IMG/VR virus record: IMGVR_UViG_3300010296_002390
Coordinates: 1-22,586 of that record
Length of the DNA stretch: 22,586 nt
Strand: one strand, 5' to 3'
DNA from: a virus
Notes under the pieces: generated by a model
Database searches by the model: none
Seen by the model: the letters and a program-made list of their open reading frames with translations, nothing else
Told to the model about the DNA's origin: nothing
Shown here: piece after piece, positions 4,860 through 22,586 of the stretch
Layout of the letters: each line of letters starts with the position of its first letter
Position numbering within the stretch: position 1 is the stretch's first letter
Made by a program: the position numbers and the translations under genes

Positions 4860-5840
4860 ATGACACTCTCCTCAATAGCCAACTTTGTTTGCAGCAAGCT
4901 CGGTAAAACCGACGCTTCATCCATCGCAGCTGCCAAAGACTTCATCAGGCAGAGGCATGAGATGATCGTTGATACCGGTCTCTGGAAAGACACGATTGTG
5001 ATTTCCGAGTTTAACTTGCCGACCAGGGAGTCTCCCGACACTAACCCCTACACGGCGAACGCAACAGAGAGTGTATCATACGAGGAAGAGTTCACCCTGC
5101 CATACGAGGTGGCTAGGCCAATTAACATCATCTACAATGATCAGCTGCTTGCTTACCGAGACCTACAAGCTCTTGTTCGCACGCAGCCGGACTCAATCCT
5201 GGGCACTGGAAACCCGGTAGCATTTACCGAGGTTGAACCAGTTGCCCTGTCCAAGCTTACTAGCACAGAGCCATTCCGCGTTCAGCTCAAAGCTTACACC
5301 AACGCGGCAGACTCCGGCACCACGATTTACTTCAAAGGGAAGCTTAACTCTAGACCAGTCGCGGAGACGCTAACACTTTCCTCGAGCAACTACTACGGAT
5401 CCCAGGAATTCGATGAGGTGCATTACGTATCCAAGAACACAACCTCAGGGGCTGTCCTGTTCTCTAACGGTGCGTCTACCGAAACCATCCCGGCGGATGA
5501 AACCAAGTACTCTCTTTGCCGGGTTCGTCTCAATCTCAACCCTGAGTACGTAACGGGTGAAGACGTTTCGATCATCGTGATCGGAAAGATACGCGTCAGA
5601 CCAATGCGGCATGACTACGACGAGCCCCAGGTGAGGGGAATAGATAACGCACTAATTGCGTTTGTGGAGGGAGACATGCTGGAGCGCTCCAGGCAATACG
5701 CCAAAGCTCAAGTGAAATACTCAGAAGCATCTAGCCAGCTGGATATCGCTAGAGACATTGAGCGAGGGCAGTCAGCTGCCGTCAGTATCCTCCAGCCAAC
5801 AGTGATAGGCGATTACGACCGAGTTGATTTTGGATTCTAA
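4860..5840 (+). CDS. Tail tubular protein A / head-tail adaptor-like (T7 gp11-like)
   Basis: 326 residues. The N-terminal helices (SIANFVCSKLGKTDASSIAA, then DFIRQRHEMIVDTGLWKDT) and C-terminal helices (DNALIAFVEGDMLERSRQYAKAQVKYSEA) have the look of podovirus adaptor or tail tubular A proteins, which join the portal to the nozzle. Between them lies a beta-rich insertion (about residues 110-230) with a TNAADSGTTIYFKGKLNSRP segment like Ig-type modules in other phage structural proteins. This makes the protein much longer than T7 gp11 (196 residues). Its position directly before a long nozzle-like gene, as in T7, is the main support. The function is inferred by order and pattern, not by a catalytic motif. 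Confidence 0.6.
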   Translation: MTLSSIANFVCSKLGKTDASSIAAAKDFIRQRHEMIVDTGLWKDTIVISEFNLPTRESPDTNPYTANATESVSYEEEFTLPYEVARPINIIYNDQLLAYRDLQALVRTQPDSILGTGNPVAFTEVEPVALSKLTSTEPFRVQLKAYTNAADSGTTIYFKGKLNSRPVAETLTLSSSNYYGSQEFDEVHYVSKNTTSGAVLFSNGASTETIPADETKYSLCRVRLNLNPEYVTGEDVSIIVIGKIRVRPMRHDYDEPQVRGIDNALIAFVEGDMLERSRQYAKAQVKYSEASSQLDIARDIERGQSAAVSILQPTVIGDYDRVDFGF

Positions 5841-17513: not shown

Positions 17514-17534
17514 CCAACTCACTTTCTAAGCAAG

Positions 17535-17557
17535 CCGGGGGAGACCCCGGTTTTTTT
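17535..17557 (+). terminator. Intrinsic terminator of the late (virion) operon
   Basis: CCGGGG (17535-17540) pairs with CCCCGG (17545-17550) around a GAGA tetraloop, followed directly by seven Ts (17551-17557). It lies 21 bp after the last late gene. The GNRA-type loop and the T-run make this a textbook rho-independent terminator. Confidence 0.9.
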
Positions 17558-17579: not shown

Positions 17580-17601
17580 ACTGTTGATATCCTGTTGACA
17601 T
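17580..17601 (+). repeat. Tandem 11-bp repeat pair A (candidate operator)
   Basis: ACTGTTGATAT (17580-17590) is followed without gap by CCTGTTGACAT (17591-17601). The second copy contains the -35 hexamer of the promoter below. Equivalent 11-bp pairs occur at 18223-18244 and, inverted, at 20211-20232. Spacing of one helical turn places both copies on the same face of the DNA, as expected for a cooperative dimer-binding repressor such as an RHH protein. Confidence 0.55.
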
Positions 17602-17623
17602 CTCCAGGTGTTTAACGTACTTT
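17595..17623 (+). promoter_or_regulatory. Sigma70-type promoter of the moron-like cassette
   Basis: A perfect TTGACA (17595-17600) is followed by a 17-bp spacer and TACTTT (17618-17623). It lies just after the late terminator and about 50 bp before the 113-residue gene. The -35 sits in repeat pair A, and the -10 sits in an imperfect palindrome, so repression is likely. Confidence 0.7.
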
Positions 17624-17629
17624 AACACC
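17607..17629. repeat. Imperfect palindrome over the -10 box
   Basis: GGTGTT (17607-17612) and AACACC (17624-17629) form a 6-bp inverted repeat, and inner AA/TT pairs also match, centred on GTAC. The right arm resembles the TTTAACACC units at 20300-20310. It could be a second operator element. Confidence 0.4.
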
Positions 17630-17673
17630 CGTACAGATAAACAACACCAATCCAACAACAGAAAGAACAAAAC

Positions 17674-18015
17674 ATGGAAAATCACATTGAATACCTTGAT
17701 TACGTTGAGGGCATCGCAAAAGACATTCTTGACGAGACTACAGACAGGGAGAGAGCTGAAGAGCTTGTTTGGGAATGCGCTGACTCTTCTCAGTACGTCT
17801 GCTATTACAGCAAAGCTCACGACCTAGTTCACTTGGTTCGCAAATGGGATCCGAGCCTATACGACGATGCCCAGGATGAGGTTGAAGAGCTGAAAATGGG
17901 AGAGTACCTAGACTACGACACATATGCTACCAAGTTGGCGTTTTCGATCCTACGCATCCACCTCTCCCATCTTGTCAATGAACAGATTGAGAACCGCGAG
18001 GAGGGTGCGGTATGA
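17674..18015 (+). CDS. Hypothetical acidic protein, first gene of a moron-like cassette
   Basis: 113 residues from ATG; upstream AGAAAGAA is only a weak ribosome site. The protein is acidic and helical, with clustered Asp/Glu/Tyr (ENHIEYLDYVEGIAKDIL; YYSKAHDLVHLVRKWDPSLY). No domain is recognised. It has its own promoter upstream and shares an ATGA overlap with the 47-residue gene and a terminator downstream, separate from the late operon. Position next to attP puts it at one end of the integrated prophage, where lysogenic conversion or superinfection genes often sit. That role is inferred from context alone. Confidence 0.6.
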   Translation: MENHIEYLDYVEGIAKDILDETTDRERAEELVWECADSSQYVCYYSKAHDLVHLVRKWDPSLYDDAQDEVEELKMGEYLDYDTYATKLAFSILRIHLSHLVNEQIENREEGAV

Positions 18016-18155
18016 AGCCTGGGGATACAGTTCGCATTGACGGTAAAGAATACACGCTGATTGAGATCTGTCCCGGACAGGCGATGATCATTGAGGATAA
18101 GCATGGAGGTCAGTTTTTGTGCAGTGGGTATATGGTCGCCCAACATTGGGAGTAG
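18012..18155 (+). CDS. 47-residue hypothetical protein, second gene of the cassette
   Basis: ATG overlaps the previous TGA (ATGA), with GAGGAGGG just upstream (17998-18005) as a good ribosome site. The sequence starts MKPGDTVRIDGKEYTLIEIC and ends YMVAQHWE. Alternating hydrophobic residues and Gly turns suggest a small SH3-like beta barrel. No family is recognised. It is followed 11 bp later by a terminator. Confidence 0.65.
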   Translation: MKPGDTVRIDGKEYTLIEICPGQAMIIEDKHGGQFLCSGYMVAQHWE

Positions 18156-18166
18156 ATTAAAAGCAG

Positions 18167-18190
18167 CCGAGGTTAAGCCTCGGTTTTTTT
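18167..18190 (+). terminator. Intrinsic terminator of the moron-like cassette
   Basis: CCGAGG (18167-18172) pairs with CCTCGG (18178-18183) around TTAAG, followed by seven Ts (18184-18190). The distal 16 bases CGGTTTTTTTGTGTCC are identical to those after the late terminator. Confidence 0.9.
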
Positions 18191-18222
18191 GTGTCCAAAT
18201 TTTCTCAACACCGTGATGCTCC

Positions 18223-18244
18223 CCTGTTGACAGCCTGTTAATAG
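18223..18244 (+). repeat. Tandem 11-bp repeat pair B (candidate operator) with nearby TCAACACCGT
   Basis: CCTGTTGACAG (18223-18233) and CCTGTTAATAG (18234-18244) lie head-to-tail and cover the -35 of the integrase promoter. Upstream, TCAACACCGT (18205-18214) is identical to 20291-20300. The first copy is the exact reverse complement of 20222-20232. Confidence 0.6.
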
Positions 18245-18255
18245 TGGGTTACTTA
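18227..18255 (+). promoter_or_regulatory. Sigma70-type promoter for integrase, upstream of attP core
   Basis: TTGACA (18227-18232), a 17-bp spacer and TACTTA (18250-18255). The geometry is the same as in the moron promoter. The predicted transcript starts near 18262 and runs through the attachment core before reaching the integrase ATG at 18377. Confidence 0.65.
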
Positions 18256-18260
18256 TAAAT

Positions 18261-18354
18261 CACTGCAAGTGGTAGTCGAACGGACTACGGATCAGAAGGT
18301 TTGGGGTTCGACTCCCTACGGGTGTACCACTTCTTCCCTCTGTCACTTGCAGTG
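18261..18354. repeat. Inverted repeat flanking the attachment core
   Basis: CACTGCAAGTG (18261-18271) and its exact reverse complement CACTTGCAGTG (18344-18354) bracket the tRNA-like core. The left arm extends to GTGGTA, matched by TACCAC at 18325-18330. A third, direct copy ACTGCAAG lies at 18366-18373. These may be integrase binding sites. Confidence 0.55.
18281..18329 (+). other. attP: attP core: 3' half of a tRNA, probably tRNA-Arg(ACG)
   Basis: The segment reads as the 3' part of a tRNA: an anticodon loop CTACGGA (18285-18291, anticodon ACG), variable loop AGGTT, T-stem TGGGG/CCCTA with loop TTCGACT (18307-18313), acceptor strand CGGGTGT, discriminator A and CCA (18327-18329). The sequence before the anticodon loop cannot pair with TCAGA and there is no D-arm or 5' acceptor strand, so it is not a complete tRNA. 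Phages that integrate into tRNA genes carry such a 3' fragment to restore the gene. The integrase follows directly. The precise crossover cannot be placed without attB. Confidence 0.65.
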
Positions 18355-18376
18355 TAAGTCCAACAACTGCAAGAAC

Positions 18377-19432
18377 ATGAACATCAAAAAAGTCACGCTA
18401 TTTAAGCGAGGTTCCAAGTACTACGCAAAGACCTGTTTTTTGGGTACAGTGTACACAGTGTCTACGGGCACTTCAGATAAAAACGATGCCTGGGAAATCG
18501 CACCAGGCAGGCTCACGAAAAAAGTCCAAGAGCAACGCACCAAGGGCAACAGTGTCCGCAGCGCCATTGAGCACTACCTCGATTTCAACACGGAATCCAG
18601 GGACAAGACCAAACGAGGCGTGATCTCGTTTGTTAAGAGCTACTGCAAGCTGCTAGGGTACAATCTGGACACGCCGGCCAAGCAGGCTTTCACCAAACAA
18701 TCAGCCATTCGGTTCCAGCAGCTGAGGCTCGCTGATGTTGAGCCAGAGGATCGCCCCAGAGTTGCCAGGAGCACCAACACGATCCTGCGATCTGTTAAGT
18801 GCCTCTACTCCGAAAGACTCCTAGATACCTACGACAAAATCCCGGATCACGTCACGTCATTCAAGAGGGTGCGATCCCTCAAAGCACCGTCTGTTCAATA
18901 CACGGTAGCCGACAAGAAAGAAAAGATTGCTGAGGCCATACGTCGATGCGATGCGCTCGAGGATGAGAACTACGGTGCCTGGTTGACCTACTACCTCTCG
19001 CTACATGCTGGTCTGAGGCGGAGTGAAGTGGCAGCTGCTAAATGGAGCTGGCTTACTGAGTCCGGGATATTGGTTCAGTCGGATGGTGACTTCCAGACCA
19101 AAAGTGGCAAGTCGCGCCTGGTTCCGCTTTCGCAATCTCAAGTCAGGCGACTGCGTGAATACCAGTTCGACGGTGAATATATTGTTCCTGGCCCCTACAC
19201 GGCGCGGTACAGAACACTTCCTGATGAGGTTGCCAAGATCATCCGAGACTGCGGTATCACTGGCAGCAAATCGTTTCATGAGCTTAGAAAATACTACGGC
19301 GCAAACGTGGCCACTCAGCTGGGGATTTTTCATGCTCAAAAGTACCTGGGGCACCACTCCCCGGAGATCACCAGCAAATACTACGCTGACATCGTCGATG
19401 CCAAACCCGTGGAGATAAAAATCTTGGCATGA
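18377..19432 (+). CDS. int: Tyrosine recombinase integrase
   Basis: 351 residues from ATG 18377. A longer frame from GTG 18269 would translate the tRNA fragment and is unlikely. The N-terminal part (VTLFKRGSKYYAKTCFLGTV) is an arm-binding-like beta domain, and the middle is a helical core-binding domain. The catalytic part has HAGLRRSE with Arg214, HELR with His301 and Arg304, LGHHSPEITSKYYADI with His326 and the nucleophile Tyr335 (nine residues after His326). It would catalyse recombination between attP and a host tRNA gene, and excision with a directionality factor not identified here. Its promoter lies on the other side of the attP core. A strong hairpin terminator follows. Confidence 0.9.
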   Translation: MNIKKVTLFKRGSKYYAKTCFLGTVYTVSTGTSDKNDAWEIAPGRLTKKVQEQRTKGNSVRSAIEHYLDFNTESRDKTKRGVISFVKSYCKLLGYNLDTPAKQAFTKQSAIRFQQLRLADVEPEDRPRVARSTNTILRSVKCLYSERLLDTYDKIPDHVTSFKRVRSLKAPSVQYTVADKKEKIAEAIRRCDALEDENYGAWLTYYLSLHAGLRRSEVAAAKWSWLTESGILVQSDGDFQTKSGKSRLVPLSQSQVRRLREYQFDGEYIVPGPYTARYRTLPDEVAKIIRDCGITGSKSFHELRKYYGANVATQLGIFHAQKYLGHHSPEITSKYYADIVDAKPVEIKILA

Positions 19433-19438
19433 AGCAAC

Positions 19439-19458
19439 TTACACCGTATAACACCAGT
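19439..19458. repeat. 10-bp phased repeat pair downstream of integrase
   Basis: TTACACCGTA (19439-19448) is followed by TAACACCAGT (19449-19458). ACACC recurs with 10-bp spacing, as in the array at 20291-20310. It may be a weak member of the operator family. Confidence 0.35.
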
Positions 19459-19488
19459 GATAGTTGTTAATGTTCATATGTTGGATAC

Positions 19489-19525
19489 GGGGCTGAGGGG
19501 GCACCCACCTCTCGGCCCCTATTTT
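19489..19525 (+). terminator. Intrinsic terminator after integrase
   Basis: A 12-bp stem, GGGGCTGAGGGG (19489-19500) against CCTCTCGGCCCC (19508-19519) with two G-T pairs and a 7-nt loop, is followed by TATTTTA. The T-run is shorter than in the other two terminators, so some readthrough into the next gene is possible. Confidence 0.7.
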
Positions 19526-20050
19526 ATGGTGACCTACCAACCAACCCCAGGCCAGGTGACCAGCTGCTATCTGGCTGCTCTCACTAATCCGGACCTCTGC
19601 AAGCCGAGCCCGGTCAGCAGTCGCTTTGACTCTCAATCATTTGAGGAGCGCCTAGAGATCAGAACCATTGCATACCTGGCTGAGGCCGGGATGAACCTAG
19701 CGGTGGGAAATGGCTTCCTAAGCGGCCTGAGAGGGGTTCCTGACGTGCCTCCGAACATCGAGGTCAAATGGAACCGGCGAGGGGATAAGCTGATTGTCAG
19801 CGGCAAATACTTAGATCCAGACCTGATCTACGTCCTAGCTACCGGTAGGCGTCCAGTGGCCTACCTAGGATGGTTGCCAGGCCGCAAAATAACCAGGAGA
19901 CTTGCCGGGAACGGTTACCCTCAATGGTTTGCCTATGCTGGAGAGTTAAAACAATTTCCAAGCAGTTGGTGGGCAGAAAAACTCCCAAAAAACATTACCA
20001 TTGGTCAGGCAATGTCGCACCCCTCCGTTTACTCTTCAACCATCGCTTGA
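19526..20050 (+). CDS. Phage protein with PD-(D/E)XK nuclease-like motif
   Basis: 174 residues from ATG 19526. The frame opens earlier (GTG 19457, ATG 19478), but those starts fall in or before the terminator hairpin. No clear ribosome site is seen for any start. The first half (SSRFDSQSFEERLEIRTIAYL) is helical. Then comes VPDVPPNIEVKW, with Asp73 and Glu79-Val-Lys81, which has the spacing of a PD-(D/E)XK site, followed by DKLIV, LIYVLATGRRPVAYLGWLPG and WFAYAGELKQFP. This is the layout of small endonuclease-like phage proteins. The role is unknown. Its last 56 bp overlap the convergent RHH gene. Nuclease activity is not proven by the motif. Confidence 0.6.
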   Translation: MVTYQPTPGQVTSCYLAALTNPDLCKPSPVSSRFDSQSFEERLEIRTIAYLAEAGMNLAVGNGFLSGLRGVPDVPPNIEVKWNRRGDKLIVSGKYLDPDLIYVLATGRRPVAYLGWLPGRKITRRLAGNGYPQWFAYAGELKQFPSSWWAEKLPKNITIGQAMSHPSVYSSTIA

Positions 20051-20177
20051 TAACTGTCTCGATCATGTTGCTGACATTGCGGTTTTCCTCGTCAGCATAA
20101 TACTTGATTTCTTTCTTTAAATCATTGTCGAGCCAGAGGCCGAGCATTGATTTATTTGGATCTCTAGAATTTGGCAT
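19995..20177 (-). CDS. Ribbon-helix-helix (Arc/CopG-like) DNA-binding regulator, candidate repressor
   Basis: 60 residues from ATG (20177). A TTG three codons earlier (20186) is better spaced from AGGAAA and may be the real start. After an N-terminal arm (PNSRDPNK) come a strand SMLGLWLD (10-17), helix A (DLKKEIKYYADEEN) and helix B (NVSNMIETVIKRWLKSK), the RHH order with a short turn. Such proteins bind DNA as dimers with the strands in the major groove, often on tandem repeats. It is the only minus-strand gene, placed back-to-back with the early operon and separated from it by repeat clusters, like a phage repressor in a genetic switch. The repressor role is inferred from position. Confidence 0.7.
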   Translation of the reverse strand: MPNSRDPNKSMLGLWLDNDLKKEIKYYADEENRNVSNMIETVIKRWLKSKRRGATLPDQW

Positions 20178-20210
20178 AAACGTCAATGTTTCCTAATGAA
20201 AACGACTACA

Positions 20211-20232
20211 ATGTTAACAGTCTGTCAACAGG
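20211..20232 (-). repeat. Tandem 11-bp repeat pair C upstream of the RHH gene
   Basis: On the minus strand, CCTGTTGACAG (20232-20222) is followed by ACTGTTAACAT (20221-20211). The first is identical to the first copy of pair B. It contains TTGACA as a possible -35 for the RHH gene, but the hexamer 17 bp downstream (TCGTTT) is a poor -10. Confidence 0.55.
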
Positions 20233-20265
20233 TGTAAAGAAACATTCATAAAAAATCTACTTGCA

Positions 20266-20310
20266 ATATCAACAGTTTAACAACAAGTTATCAACACCGT
20301 TTAACACCGT
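20266..20310. repeat. Repeat array at the start of the early operon (operator or origin)
   Basis: ATATCAACAGT (20266-20276) is the exact reverse complement of 17580-17590. It is followed by TTAACAACA, then TCAACACCGT (20291-20300) and TTAACACCGT (20301-20310). The last unit covers the GTG start of the next gene, so bound protein would block it. TTATCAACA at 20288-20296 differs from the DnaA box TTATCCACA at one base, and an AT-rich stretch (20233-20265) lies just left. Confidence 0.5.
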
Positions 20311-20512
20311 GAGTGAATACGAATTAAACGAGCCGGTTTTCATCGACAGCTGGGCTTATGAAAAGCTTCAGCAGCTGAAAAGACCGGGCGAACACGAGAC
20401 ACAAACATTCCAACGAATATGGAACTATTACAAACAGACCAAAGCGGATGGGGACTTATCGGACTCATCATCGGAGCAGGACTACTCCTCGGATGCGTCC
20501 TGGCAGGAGTGA
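20309..20512 (+). CDS. Small protein, possibly a second RHH-type regulator (first early gene)
   Basis: 67 residues from GTG 20309. A TTG at 20261 would translate the repeat array and is unlikely. The core VFIDSWAYEKLQQLKRPGEH has the strand-then-helix look of small RHH/VapB-like proteins, whose members often read 'Y-x-x-L-x-x-L-K-R-P-G-E'; then comes a helix TQTFQRIWNYYKQTK. The last 17 residues are Ser/Asp-rich and may be a by-product of the overlapping frame. It is divergent from the minus-strand RHH gene and is the first gene of the early transcript, where a Cro-like protein would be expected. No ribosome site is visible and no operator contact residues can be confirmed. Confidence 0.45.
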   Translation: MSEYELNEPVFIDSWAYEKLQQLKRPGEHETQTFQRIWNYYKQTKADGDLSDSSSEQDYSSDASWQE

Positions 20513-20550
20513 GAACAAATGACGACGACGAAGCAGGAATTCAACGATGA
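20419..20550 (+). CDS. 43-residue membrane protein embedded out of frame in the preceding gene
   Basis: ATG 20419 to TGA 20550; the TGA overlaps the ATG of the ERF gene as ATGA, the same junction used by several gene pairs here. The peptide begins MELLQTDQSG, has a single hydrophobic helix of about residues 11-31 (WGLIGLIIGAGLLLGCVLAG), then RTNDDDEAG. A 20-residue uninterrupted hydrophobic run with Gly spacing is unlikely by chance. It overlaps the upstream gene by 94 bp in another frame. No clear ribosome site is seen. A role in the inner membrane, such as exclusion or lysis control, is open. Confidence 0.5.
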   Translation: MELLQTDQSGWGLIGLIIGAGLLLGCVLAGVRTNDDDEAGIQR

Positions 20551-21041
20551 GCGAACCATTAACAGATGCAGAGAAAGTGAGCGCCCTATGGGAAGCGATT
20601 GCCCAAGCTCAAAGCAAATTGGGACCGGTGCCAAAGAATGGGCGCAATCCACATTTCCGGACGAAGTATGCGACCCTGGACGACATCCTCAAATCTACAC
20701 TGCCGGTTTTCGCTTCCGTAGGCATCGGCATCACCCAATGGACTTCAACTTCAGAGAATGGCGTGAGGGTTAAAACTCTGATTGGCCACAAAGCAGGGGC
20801 TATCATTCAAGACACAATTGAACTGCCATGCGATACCACTAACCCTCAGAAAGTCGGATCGACCCTGACATACGCACGTCGGTATGCATTGCAATCTGCA
20901 TTGGGGATAGCCGCGGAGGAGGATGATGATGCCAACGCAAGTGCGATACCATCCAACCCGGTGCCCACCAGGACCAAACCTGTCGGGCAAGCCAGAAAAG
21001 TCCCTGGTAACAAGCCTCAGTTCGATTTGGGAGATCTATGA
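20547..21041 (+). CDS. erf: ERF-family single-strand annealing protein
   Basis: 164 residues; CAGGAATT lies upstream. The protein has the ERF signature: AIAQAQSKL, then NPHFRTKYATLDDIL (34-48), a GIGITQW turn, a V-x-V-K-T-L-I-G-H strand, NPQKVGSTLTYARRYAL (99-115), LGI and an acidic EEDDDAN tail. P22 Erf and relatives form rings on single-stranded DNA and anneal complementary strands in phage recombination and circularisation. The C-terminal 35 residues are Pro/Lys-rich, probably a linker with a partner-binding tip (QFDLGDL). It overlaps the nuclease gene by 4 bp, the usual annealing protein-exonuclease pairing. Confidence 0.85.
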   Translation: MSEPLTDAEKVSALWEAIAQAQSKLGPVPKNGRNPHFRTKYATLDDILKSTLPVFASVGIGITQWTSTSENGVRVKTLIGHKAGAIIQDTIELPCDTTNPQKVGSTLTYARRYALQSALGIAAEEDDDANASAIPSNPVPTRTKPVGQARKVPGNKPQFDLGDL

Positions 21042-22021
21042 GTGAGGAAAGACAACATCACCCTAACGGGTGTAGCAAATGGCCTGACTGGCTGAGGTGC
21101 TCAGACTACGAGGCAACCGGGGGTAGCAGCCCAGCTGCTGAACGAGGCACCAGGATTCACAAATACTGGGAGCTGCTTGGAACTGACGAGGCAATCGATG
21201 GGGACGCTGATCCAGAGGAAGTGGCTCATGCTGCATGGGCAGTTGGTCAGGTAGATGAGTTAGCAGGTGCAGCTGACATCGAGTGGGAACGCCGGATCGA
21301 GAGTGAAGCGCCAGAGTATTTCGGTTACCTCGATGCCTGTTGGTATGAGAACCCTGAGACCATCGTGATTTGTGACGGTAAATCTGGCCAGGGTAACGAT
21401 GAACAGTGGATCCAGCTGGTTGGCTATGCATACGCAATCATGCAGGAGGACACTGCCATTAAGCAGGCCAAGCTTCACTTCATCTACTGGGACAGGCGCG
21501 AGATCAAATCCTATGAATTTAGCCGCGCCCAGGTGTTAAACGAAGTTAAGAAACTTTTCCAACACCGACAGTCTGGGCAGAGGGCAACCGGGGTGCAGTG
21601 TAGTAGGTGCAAACTCTATGAGACCTGCGGGAAAGTGCAGGGGGTGTTGATTCGCACTTGGCAAACCGACTGGAGCTCAGTGTGGAACTCACCAGCTGCT
21701 CTCAGGGAGCTCGATGATGATTTGGACCTGCTCTCAAAGATGCATGAGAAAGTAAAAGCCAAAGTCAAAGAGCTGAGTGCCGCTGGAACTGAAGTGCCAG
21801 GCTACCGGTTTTACACCCGAAAGGGCTCTTCAAAAGTAGACACTCTAGAGGCTTGGAAATCTTTAAAGAAGAGACTATCTGCCGACGACTTTCTCAAGTG
21901 CTGCACAGTAAAGCTGTCAGCTCTTCAAGCCATGCATCAGCTCCGAACCGGCGAGGAGTTGACTGGAGAATTCATCACGCCGGGTGAATCAACGCAAGTG
22001 CTAACCAAAAAGAAAAACTAA
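21038..22021 (+). CDS. Cas4/RecB-like PD-(D/E)XK exonuclease with cysteine cluster
   Basis: 327 residues, ATG overlapping the ERF stop (ATGA). The nuclease half shows ERGTRIHKYWE with His41, GYLDACW with Asp99, ICDGKSG with Asp113-Gly-Lys115, and QLVGYAYAI with Gln126 and Tyr130: the H...D...DxK...QxxxY order of the RecB/Cas4 family. Cys12 or Cys21 near the N-terminus and C188, C191 and C197 (CSRCKLYETC) could hold an iron-sulfur cluster, as in Cas4 and AddB. The C-terminal part is helical. It most likely resects DNA ends to give the single strands annealed by ERF. DUF2800-type phage proteins have this layout. Confidence 0.75.
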   Translation: MSEERQHHPNGCSKWPDWLRCSDYEATGGSSPAAERGTRIHKYWELLGTDEAIDGDADPEEVAHAAWAVGQVDELAGAADIEWERRIESEAPEYFGYLDACWYENPETIVICDGKSGQGNDEQWIQLVGYAYAIMQEDTAIKQAKLHFIYWDRREIKSYEFSRAQVLNEVKKLFQHRQSGQRATGVQCSRCKLYETCGKVQGVLIRTWQTDWSSVWNSPAALRELDDDLDLLSKMHEKVKAKVKELSAAGTEVPGYRFYTRKGSSKVDTLEAWKSLKKRLSADDFLKCCTVKLSALQAMHQLRTGEELTGEFITPGESTQVLTKKKN

Positions 22022-22296
22022 TGCCACACCAATACACAAAAGTAACTGGGGGTCGATTGTTTAAAAACGAGACCCATGACGAAAACGGAAACCCAACCAA
22101 GCGACCACCATTGTCGGTGAGCAACTGCGAAGTTCTAGAAGATCTCAAAAAGGGAGATCGAGTGGACATAGCCGGTTGGATCAAACAAGAGGAGGGCACC
22201 AACGAGAAAGTCATCTCTATCACGGTGACCAAGAAGACCCTGGTTGGACCTGCTCCCAGTCAAGCTAACAACGACGACGACATTCCCTGGGGTTGA
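22021..22296 (+). CDS. SSB-like single-stranded DNA-binding protein
   Basis: 91 residues; ATG overlaps the previous TAA (TAATG). The centre (LSVSNCEVLEDLKKGDRVDI, then AGWIKQEEGTNEKVISITVT) reads like the later strands of an OB fold, with 'GDRVDIAGWIK' resembling SSB and phage SSB-like proteins. The C-terminus NNDDDIPWG strongly resembles the acidic partner-binding tip DDDIPF of bacterial SSB, with W-G in place of the terminal F. It would coat single strands for ERF and the nuclease. It is shorter than cellular SSB. Confidence 0.65.
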   Translation: MPHQYTKVTGGRLFKNETHDENGNPTKRPPLSVSNCEVLEDLKKGDRVDIAGWIKQEEGTNEKVISITVTKKTLVGPAPSQANNDDDIPWG

Positions 22297-22298
22297 GG

Positions 22299-22586
22299 AT
22301 GGTTCACTCCCGGAACAAAGGGAAGCGGGGGGAGCGCGAATGGGCTGGAGTGCTCCAATATCATGGATACTCAGACGCCAGGCGTGGGGCGCAATACAGC
22401 GCACAAACCGCAGACGGCAGTCCAAGCCCTGATGTCCATTGTCCCTCGCTCCCTATCCACTGGGAGGTCAAGCGCACCAACCGACTGAGTATCCGAGACG
22501 CGGTCGCACAGGCCAAATCGGATGCCGGTCGGTATGGAGCTGAATACTGGGCTGTCGCATGGCGAGAGGATCACGGTGAGTGGTTA
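22299..22586 (+). CDS. Holliday-junction-resolvase-like PD-(D/E)XK nuclease (3' truncated by window)
   Basis: ATG 22299 comes 2 bp after the SSB-like stop; 96 codons are open to the window end. The motifs match the archaeal Hjc and related phage nuclease pattern: N-terminal KGKRGEREWA with Glu12, ARRGAQY, SPDVH with Asp45 and IHWEVKR with Glu56-Val-Lys58, then IRDAVAQAKSDAG. Such proteins cleave branched DNA made by recombination or stalled replication, before packaging. The run of frame beyond 22586 is unknown. It completes an annealase-exonuclease-SSB-resolvase set. Confidence 0.7.
   Translation, partial: MVHSRNKGKRGEREWAGVLQYHGYSDARRGAQYSAQTADGSPSPDVHCPSLPIHWEVKRTNRLSIRDAVAQAKSDAGRYGAEYWAVAWREDHGEWL

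Follow-up and report, generated by a model that had tools for sequence, protein, structure and literature searches.

We propose, with a probability of roughly 70%, that a 60-residue ribbon-helix-helix (RHH) protein is the phage's own repressor of four operators, binding cooperatively to phased boxes and holding lysogeny. The window, that is the whole stretch of 22,586 nt analysed here, is a phage contig (IMG/VR record IMGVR_UViG_3300010296_002390), and the hosts of the phage are Verrucomicrobia bacteria. Phased boxes of about 11 bp, arranged head to tail with the consensus MCTGTTRAYAK, were found at four promoters of the window. The original prediction had named a single RHH repressor for a shared set of promoters, and this is likely right: its location, its profile matches and its co-change with the boxes make the RHH protein a candidate ligand.

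In the right part of the window, the late operon ends and is followed by a terminator, an accessory operon of two genes, a further terminator, the integrase gene, a gene for a 174-aa protein, the RHH gene (minus strand) and the early operon. The early operon is divergent from the RHH gene and opens with a 67-aa gene and the gene for an ERF annealing protein. The 174-aa protein (19526-20050) is conserved and unannotated, and its PD...PP(D/N)IEVKW motif resembles the PD-(D/E)xK nuclease signature.

Phased boxes at four predicted promoters

All promoters described here are predicted promoters, called by inspection or with a simple scan for matches to the consensus. O1 (ACTGTTGATAT, CCTGTTGACAT; 17580-17601, plus strand) overlaps the −35 of the accessory-operon promoter (TTGACA 17595-17600, 17-nt spacer, TACTTT 17618-17623). 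The operon under it (113-aa and 47-aa ORFs, 17674-18155, plus strand) is bordered by the terminators at 17532-17553 and 18165-18185. O2 (CCTGTTGACAG, CCTGTTAATAG; 18223-18244, plus strand) spans the −35 and the spacer of the integrase promoter P_int (TTGACA 18227-18232, 17-nt spacer, TACTTA 18250-18255). The RHH gene shares its intergenic region with the early operon, and both O3 and O4 lie inside it. O3 (CCTGTTGACAG, ACTGTTAACAT; 20211-20232, minus strand) covers the spacer and the −10 of the RHH promoter (TTTACA 20238-20233, 16-nt spacer, TAACAT 20216-20211). O4 (20266-20308, minus strand) lies over the early promoter and start, where three clear boxes (GGTGTTGATAA-CTTGTTGTTAA-ACTGTTGATAT, 20298-20266) are joined at 10 bp by a degenerate fourth (GGTGTTAAAC, 20308-20299), so that the array reaches the start codon.

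The 11-mers of the original prediction were all present where it had placed them. It had counted three promoters with a shared family of sites; the sharing was confirmed and the number is four, since the copy at 20266 ends the phased O4 array. A TTGACA −35 inside the repeats was recovered with good spacing at O1 and O2; it does not extend to 20232-20211.

Relatives of the phage were searched for with three of its proteins, namely the integrase, the RHH protein and the 174-aa protein. Those found are G001 (36 kb), G002 (20 kb), G302 (37 kb; L138 is this phage too) and G304/L166, with G299-301/L155-158, G303/L162 and G305/L167 as further relatives. Compared with the window, G001 and G002 have integrases about 70% identical and RHH proteins 72-75% identical, and in phages with integrases at this level of identity the operator positions are kept at the same promoters. 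Within O1, TGTTGACA is identical across four phages. At the position of O2, G001 and G002 carry degenerate phased boxes, and the counterpart of O3 is a GGTGTTAACAR-SCTGTTAATAT pair over their RHH promoter. The O4 homologues are ungapped in G001 and G002 and diverged in G302. A second conserved element, ACACCGTWTAACACC, has exact copies in two places only, behind int and at the early promoter (window 19441-19455 and 20294-20308; G001 29110 and 30071; G002 3143 and 2186), and ACACCGT is also found at the other promoters of G001. The element may be an additional operator with 10-bp spacing or the site of a second regulator.

When at most one mismatch was allowed, the consensus matched 15 times in the window against 3.5 expected, and never more than 11 times in any of 100 shuffles. 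The perfect matches in the window, seven of seven, stand at 17580, 17591, 18223, 18234, 20211, 20222 and 20266. Tandem pairs with at most three mismatches were found only at the operator promoters of the window (six of six, three of them with 0 mismatches), and the reversed motif gave 0 matches there. In the 36 kb of G001, the same search returned the four homologous promoters and nothing else; G002 had a single match away from these promoters. A spacing of 11 was clearly the best among the spacings of 8-18 that were tried.

A weight matrix was then built from sites 3 and 4 of G001 and G002 only, and it placed O1, O3, O2 and O4 of the window on top (22.3 to 18.1 bits). Conversely, with a matrix from sites 3 and 4 of the window only, the same promoters took the top places in G001 and G002. 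With the joint matrix, the window operators scored 23.3-26.4 bits, whereas the best coding site reached 10.4 bits; the top scores of 30 Markov-shuffled genomes had a mean of 11.0 and a largest value of 16.7. The original prediction had proposed a weight-matrix search for confinement to promoters and had named frequent pairs inside coding regions as the finding that would speak against it. The operators came first in the window and no coding site came close.

These searches also bear on the reading that the repeats match by chance and are no more than strong −35 elements. TTGACA does lie within the consensus at O1 and O2, and the second boxes of these two sites are weak in G001 and G002, so the strength of the O1 and O2 pairs is partly specific to the window phage. 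A TTGACA −35, however, cannot account for the O4 boxes or for the role of O3, and the matrix from O3 and O4 boxes only still found O1 and O2 first. The partner box, the one in which the −35 does not lie, scored 13.8 bits at O1 and 12.6 bits at O2. The chance of at least 12.5 bits is 8e-5 per position, and that of a partner box at exactly ±11 bp is about 1e-4. Because such a partner-box score is this improbable, TTGACA alone is insufficient for the O1 and O2 pairs. The chance reading is disfavoured by the leave-out matrix test, and we give it hardly any credence.

About 62-64% of the mirrored positions in the box pair with each other (column-permutation control, p 0.04-0.15), which is suggestive, though not significant, as a sign of the symmetry expected for dimers. 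The 11-bp self-similarity within single intergenic regions was weak and was significant in L157 only. Among the matches listed in an exact-tandem scan of viral contigs, almost all were chance or DnaA-box-like, and the only true relative was L061, which is nearly identical to the window.

The RHH protein as candidate ligand

The RHH (Arc-like) protein is encoded at 19995-20177 on the minus strand. It matched the PHROG Arc-like repressor (4.8e-6) and Pfam RHH_5 (3.5e-5, 23.9 bits, below the curated 26-bit cut-off). Its best PDB profile match was SvtR (2kel, 1.7e-6), followed by weaker matches to ArtA, pArc, ORF56 and E73, every one an RHH protein. By sequence profile, the 60-aa protein is thus assigned to the ribbon-helix-helix (MetJ/Arc) superfamily. 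An AF2 monomer, calculated with an alignment of 4 sequences, was a poor model with a single helix (pTM 0.38). Tandem boxes near 11 bp are found at the gene's own promoter and at other early promoters, as in the F55/Arc/RelB mode. The RHH protein appears to be the best candidate ligand of the boxes because it is divergent from the early operon and adjacent to its own operator, because it matches the profiles of RHH repressors and because its operators change with it.

This co-change was seen in the more distant relatives. In G302, with an RHH protein 47% identical, the accessory and early promoters were the two best places genome-wide at a spacing of 10 bp. In L166/G304, the three best 11-bp places were all in the RHH/early intergenic region. 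In G303, G305 and G299, which have other RHH types, the boxes were absent from the RHH and early promoters, and a scan for MCTGTTRAYAK-type sites recognised no phased box in the RHH/early regions of L162 and L167. G299-G301 instead carry GGCGCAY three times at 11-bp spacing between the RHH gene and the early operon. These comparisons, which cover few independent RHH types between which other genes also differ, support the view that the operator sequence changes together with the RHH subfamily while the 11-bp phasing is kept. Beside an RHH relative in L188 (1485-1941), the palindrome GGTGATWWYCACC is present in three copies and is perhaps its operator. The RHH region of L167 has two copies of the palindrome GGTGTTAA(A/C)CACC, perhaps the operator of that RHH relative.

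The boxes could be bound by another phage regulator, either an early protein with a DnaA_C domain, which is the main rival ligand, or the 67-aa early product. The early operon of G001 encodes a DnaA_C protein (PF08299, 4e-9), a single mismatch separates one O4 box (TTATCAACA) from a DnaA box, against 2-5 for the others, and true DnaA boxes can be 11-bp phased too, as in L089. We nevertheless consider this explanation unlikely. DnaA_C proteins are equally present in phages without the boxes (G299-301, G303), most boxes have at least three mismatches to TTATCCACA, and the boxes are located at promoters, among them the one of the RHH gene. The 67-aa protein, for its part, is without a recognisable DNA-binding family. 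A DnaA-box array or origin with TTATNCACA boxes was set aside on the same mismatch count.

Proteins with the DnaA C-terminal domain were found to be encoded by G001 (32999-33190), G302, G303, G304 and G299-301, and the early operon of G001 also encodes an ATPase with a DnaA-like AAA match. L089 is an unrelated phage contig, and its phased DnaA boxes (GCTGTGGATAAGCTGTGGATAA, 5369-5400) are a possible origin.

The 67-aa gene (20309-20512, plus strand) is the first of the early operon and is kept in G001, G302 and L166. Behind it, the early replication/recombination operon under O4 (20547-22586, plus strand) encodes the ERF annealing protein, a Cas4/PDDEXK-like nuclease and others. An AF2 monomer model of limited quality placed helices at residues 14-23 and 30-46 of the 67-aa protein; a family search and a fold search gave no match. 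In L157 and L167, second RHH-like genes lie near the position of the 67-aa gene. Judged from the helix positions in the model, the 67-aa protein is possibly a second RHH protein in a Cro/Arc-like position, so that two RHH genes would flank the operator as in immI of P22.

We also considered whether a host regulator such as LexA uses the sites, which are common to four promoters like a host regulon and whose TGT..ACA resembles parts of several bacterial operators. The motif TGTTC-N4-GAACA, which we take to be that of verrucomicrobial LexA, was absent from the window, from G001 and G002 and from the L154 locus, and an SOS/LexA operator was rejected for that reason. The sites moreover adjoin the phage RHH gene and vary with the RHH type. 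Phages of the L157 type use the same attP tRNA and therefore have a similar host range, but are without the boxes. A host regulator is thus very improbable as the user of the sites.

Integration and the proposed lysogenic state

The tyrosine integrase gene (18377-19432, plus strand; Pfam Phage_integrase, 5.6e-12) is preceded by the attP core (18283-18329, plus strand), which lies between P_int and int. The core consists of the final 47 nt of a tRNA-Arg(ACG) gene and exactly matches the tRNA-Arg(ACG) 3' ends in 8 Verrucomicrobia genomes. An integrase together with an attP identical to the 3' end of a host tRNA points to a temperate phage. About 680 draws of genomes, taken from the order and the phylum to which one verrucomicrobial genome belongs, yielded no close integrated prophage, and a scan of the genome contigs by integrase N-terminal patterns gave no match. 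The attP of the phage contig L138 is that of a verrucomicrobial tRNA-Arg; the contig was found in an actinobacterial (Candidatus Microthrix) MAG and is probably mis-binned.

Since O2 and the attP core are 39 bp apart and O4 is an array of 3-4 boxes adjoining the early operon, the sites near attP might be arm sites of the integrase or excisionase, or the O4 array a replication origin. We assign this a very small probability. The same boxes are also present at other promoters 0.7 kb and 1.9 kb away, and the core is flanked by a different repeat, CACTGCAAGTG / CACTTGCAGTG, as the better candidate for arm sites. This repeat forms inverted repeats around the core in the window at 18260-18350, which may be the integrase arm sites.

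According to the RHH repressor model, each box, being quasi-palindromic, would be bound by one RHH dimer; adjacent dimers would be spaced by one helical turn and would act cooperatively on two to four boxes. This occupancy is proposed by analogy with RelB-like RHH repressors. The bound protein would cover the −35, the spacer, the −10 or the start at the four promoters and exclude RNA polymerase from the accessory operon at O1, the integrase gene at O2, the early replication operon at O4 and, as autorepression, the RHH gene itself at O3. With steady RHH levels on the four operators, the phage would therefore be held lysogenic. Integration itself would cut int off from P_int, because the attP core lies between the two. 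The original prediction had called the accessory operon a moron, a label that fits poorly because the model predicts this operon to be repressed in the lysogen.

A wider proposal is that a family of tailed Verrucomicrobiota phages uses exchangeable RHH modules as the sole lysogeny switch. Each module would consist of a divergent RHH repressor, a small and possibly RHH-type first early gene and 10-11-bp phased boxes that are replaced together with the protein, in a constant architecture, and the repressor would also act on an integrase promoter that is split from int by integration. We offer this tentatively and think it somewhat more probably wrong than right. Verrucomicrobiota are an abundant phylum in aquatic habitats and soil, and no account of lysogeny control in their phages was found in the open literature searched. 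If the RHH repressor model is true, a 60-residue RHH protein would fill the CI role, with a four-operator regulon readable from sequence, and the related phages with swapped RHH types and box sequences would provide a natural series for the study of RHH-DNA recognition.

Comparison with known repressor systems

The proposed mechanism is not new in kind, and its closest functional precedent, by analogy, is F55 of SSV1. F55 regulates lysogeny as an RHH protein, and its 11-nt sites occur in several early promoters as well as in that of its own gene (PMC5569661, PMC9608457). Like the window protein, it is a small RHH protein with several 11-nt sites, its own promoter included, and is the proposed keeper of lysogeny. 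SSV1, in contrast, is an archaeal fusellovirus with archaeal promoters, an unrelated sequence context and the box ATAGATAGAGT, and an integrase promoter within the regulon is a feature of the window phage, unlike F55. Escherichia coli RelB binds as cooperative RHH dimers to adjacent half-sites with the core [A/T]TGT[A/C]A on one face of the DNA (PMC2812701). RelB and relO resemble the proposed window system in that an RHH protein occupies two pseudo-palindromic half-sites next to each other, which have TGT...ACA ends, but the half-sites are 12 bp and control a toxin-antitoxin operon. SvtR of SIRV1 (2kel) binds to its own promoter and to three further viral sites; it differs in its imperfect inverted-repeat site and in belonging to an archaeal rod-shaped virus.

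In P22, the immI region encodes the phage RHH repressors Arc and Mnt, which use adjacent half-sites on one DNA face and an operator between divergent genes, and it is a secondary immunity region beside the CI-type c2 repressor. In the proposed model, the window phage shares with P22 the RHH repressor, the adjacent half-sites on the same face and the operator between divergent genes. Unlike P22, it has no CI-like gene that could be seen, and its boxes are spread over four promoters. With the CI/Cro switch of lambda, it has in common a (here putative) repressor gene divergent from the early genes and multiple shared operators, whereas lambda uses an HTH repressor and inverted-repeat operators. 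The description as a 'non-HTH version of the lambda switch' in the original prediction therefore holds relative to lambda only; as a claim of novelty it is too strong, because F55 of SSV1 already fills that place.
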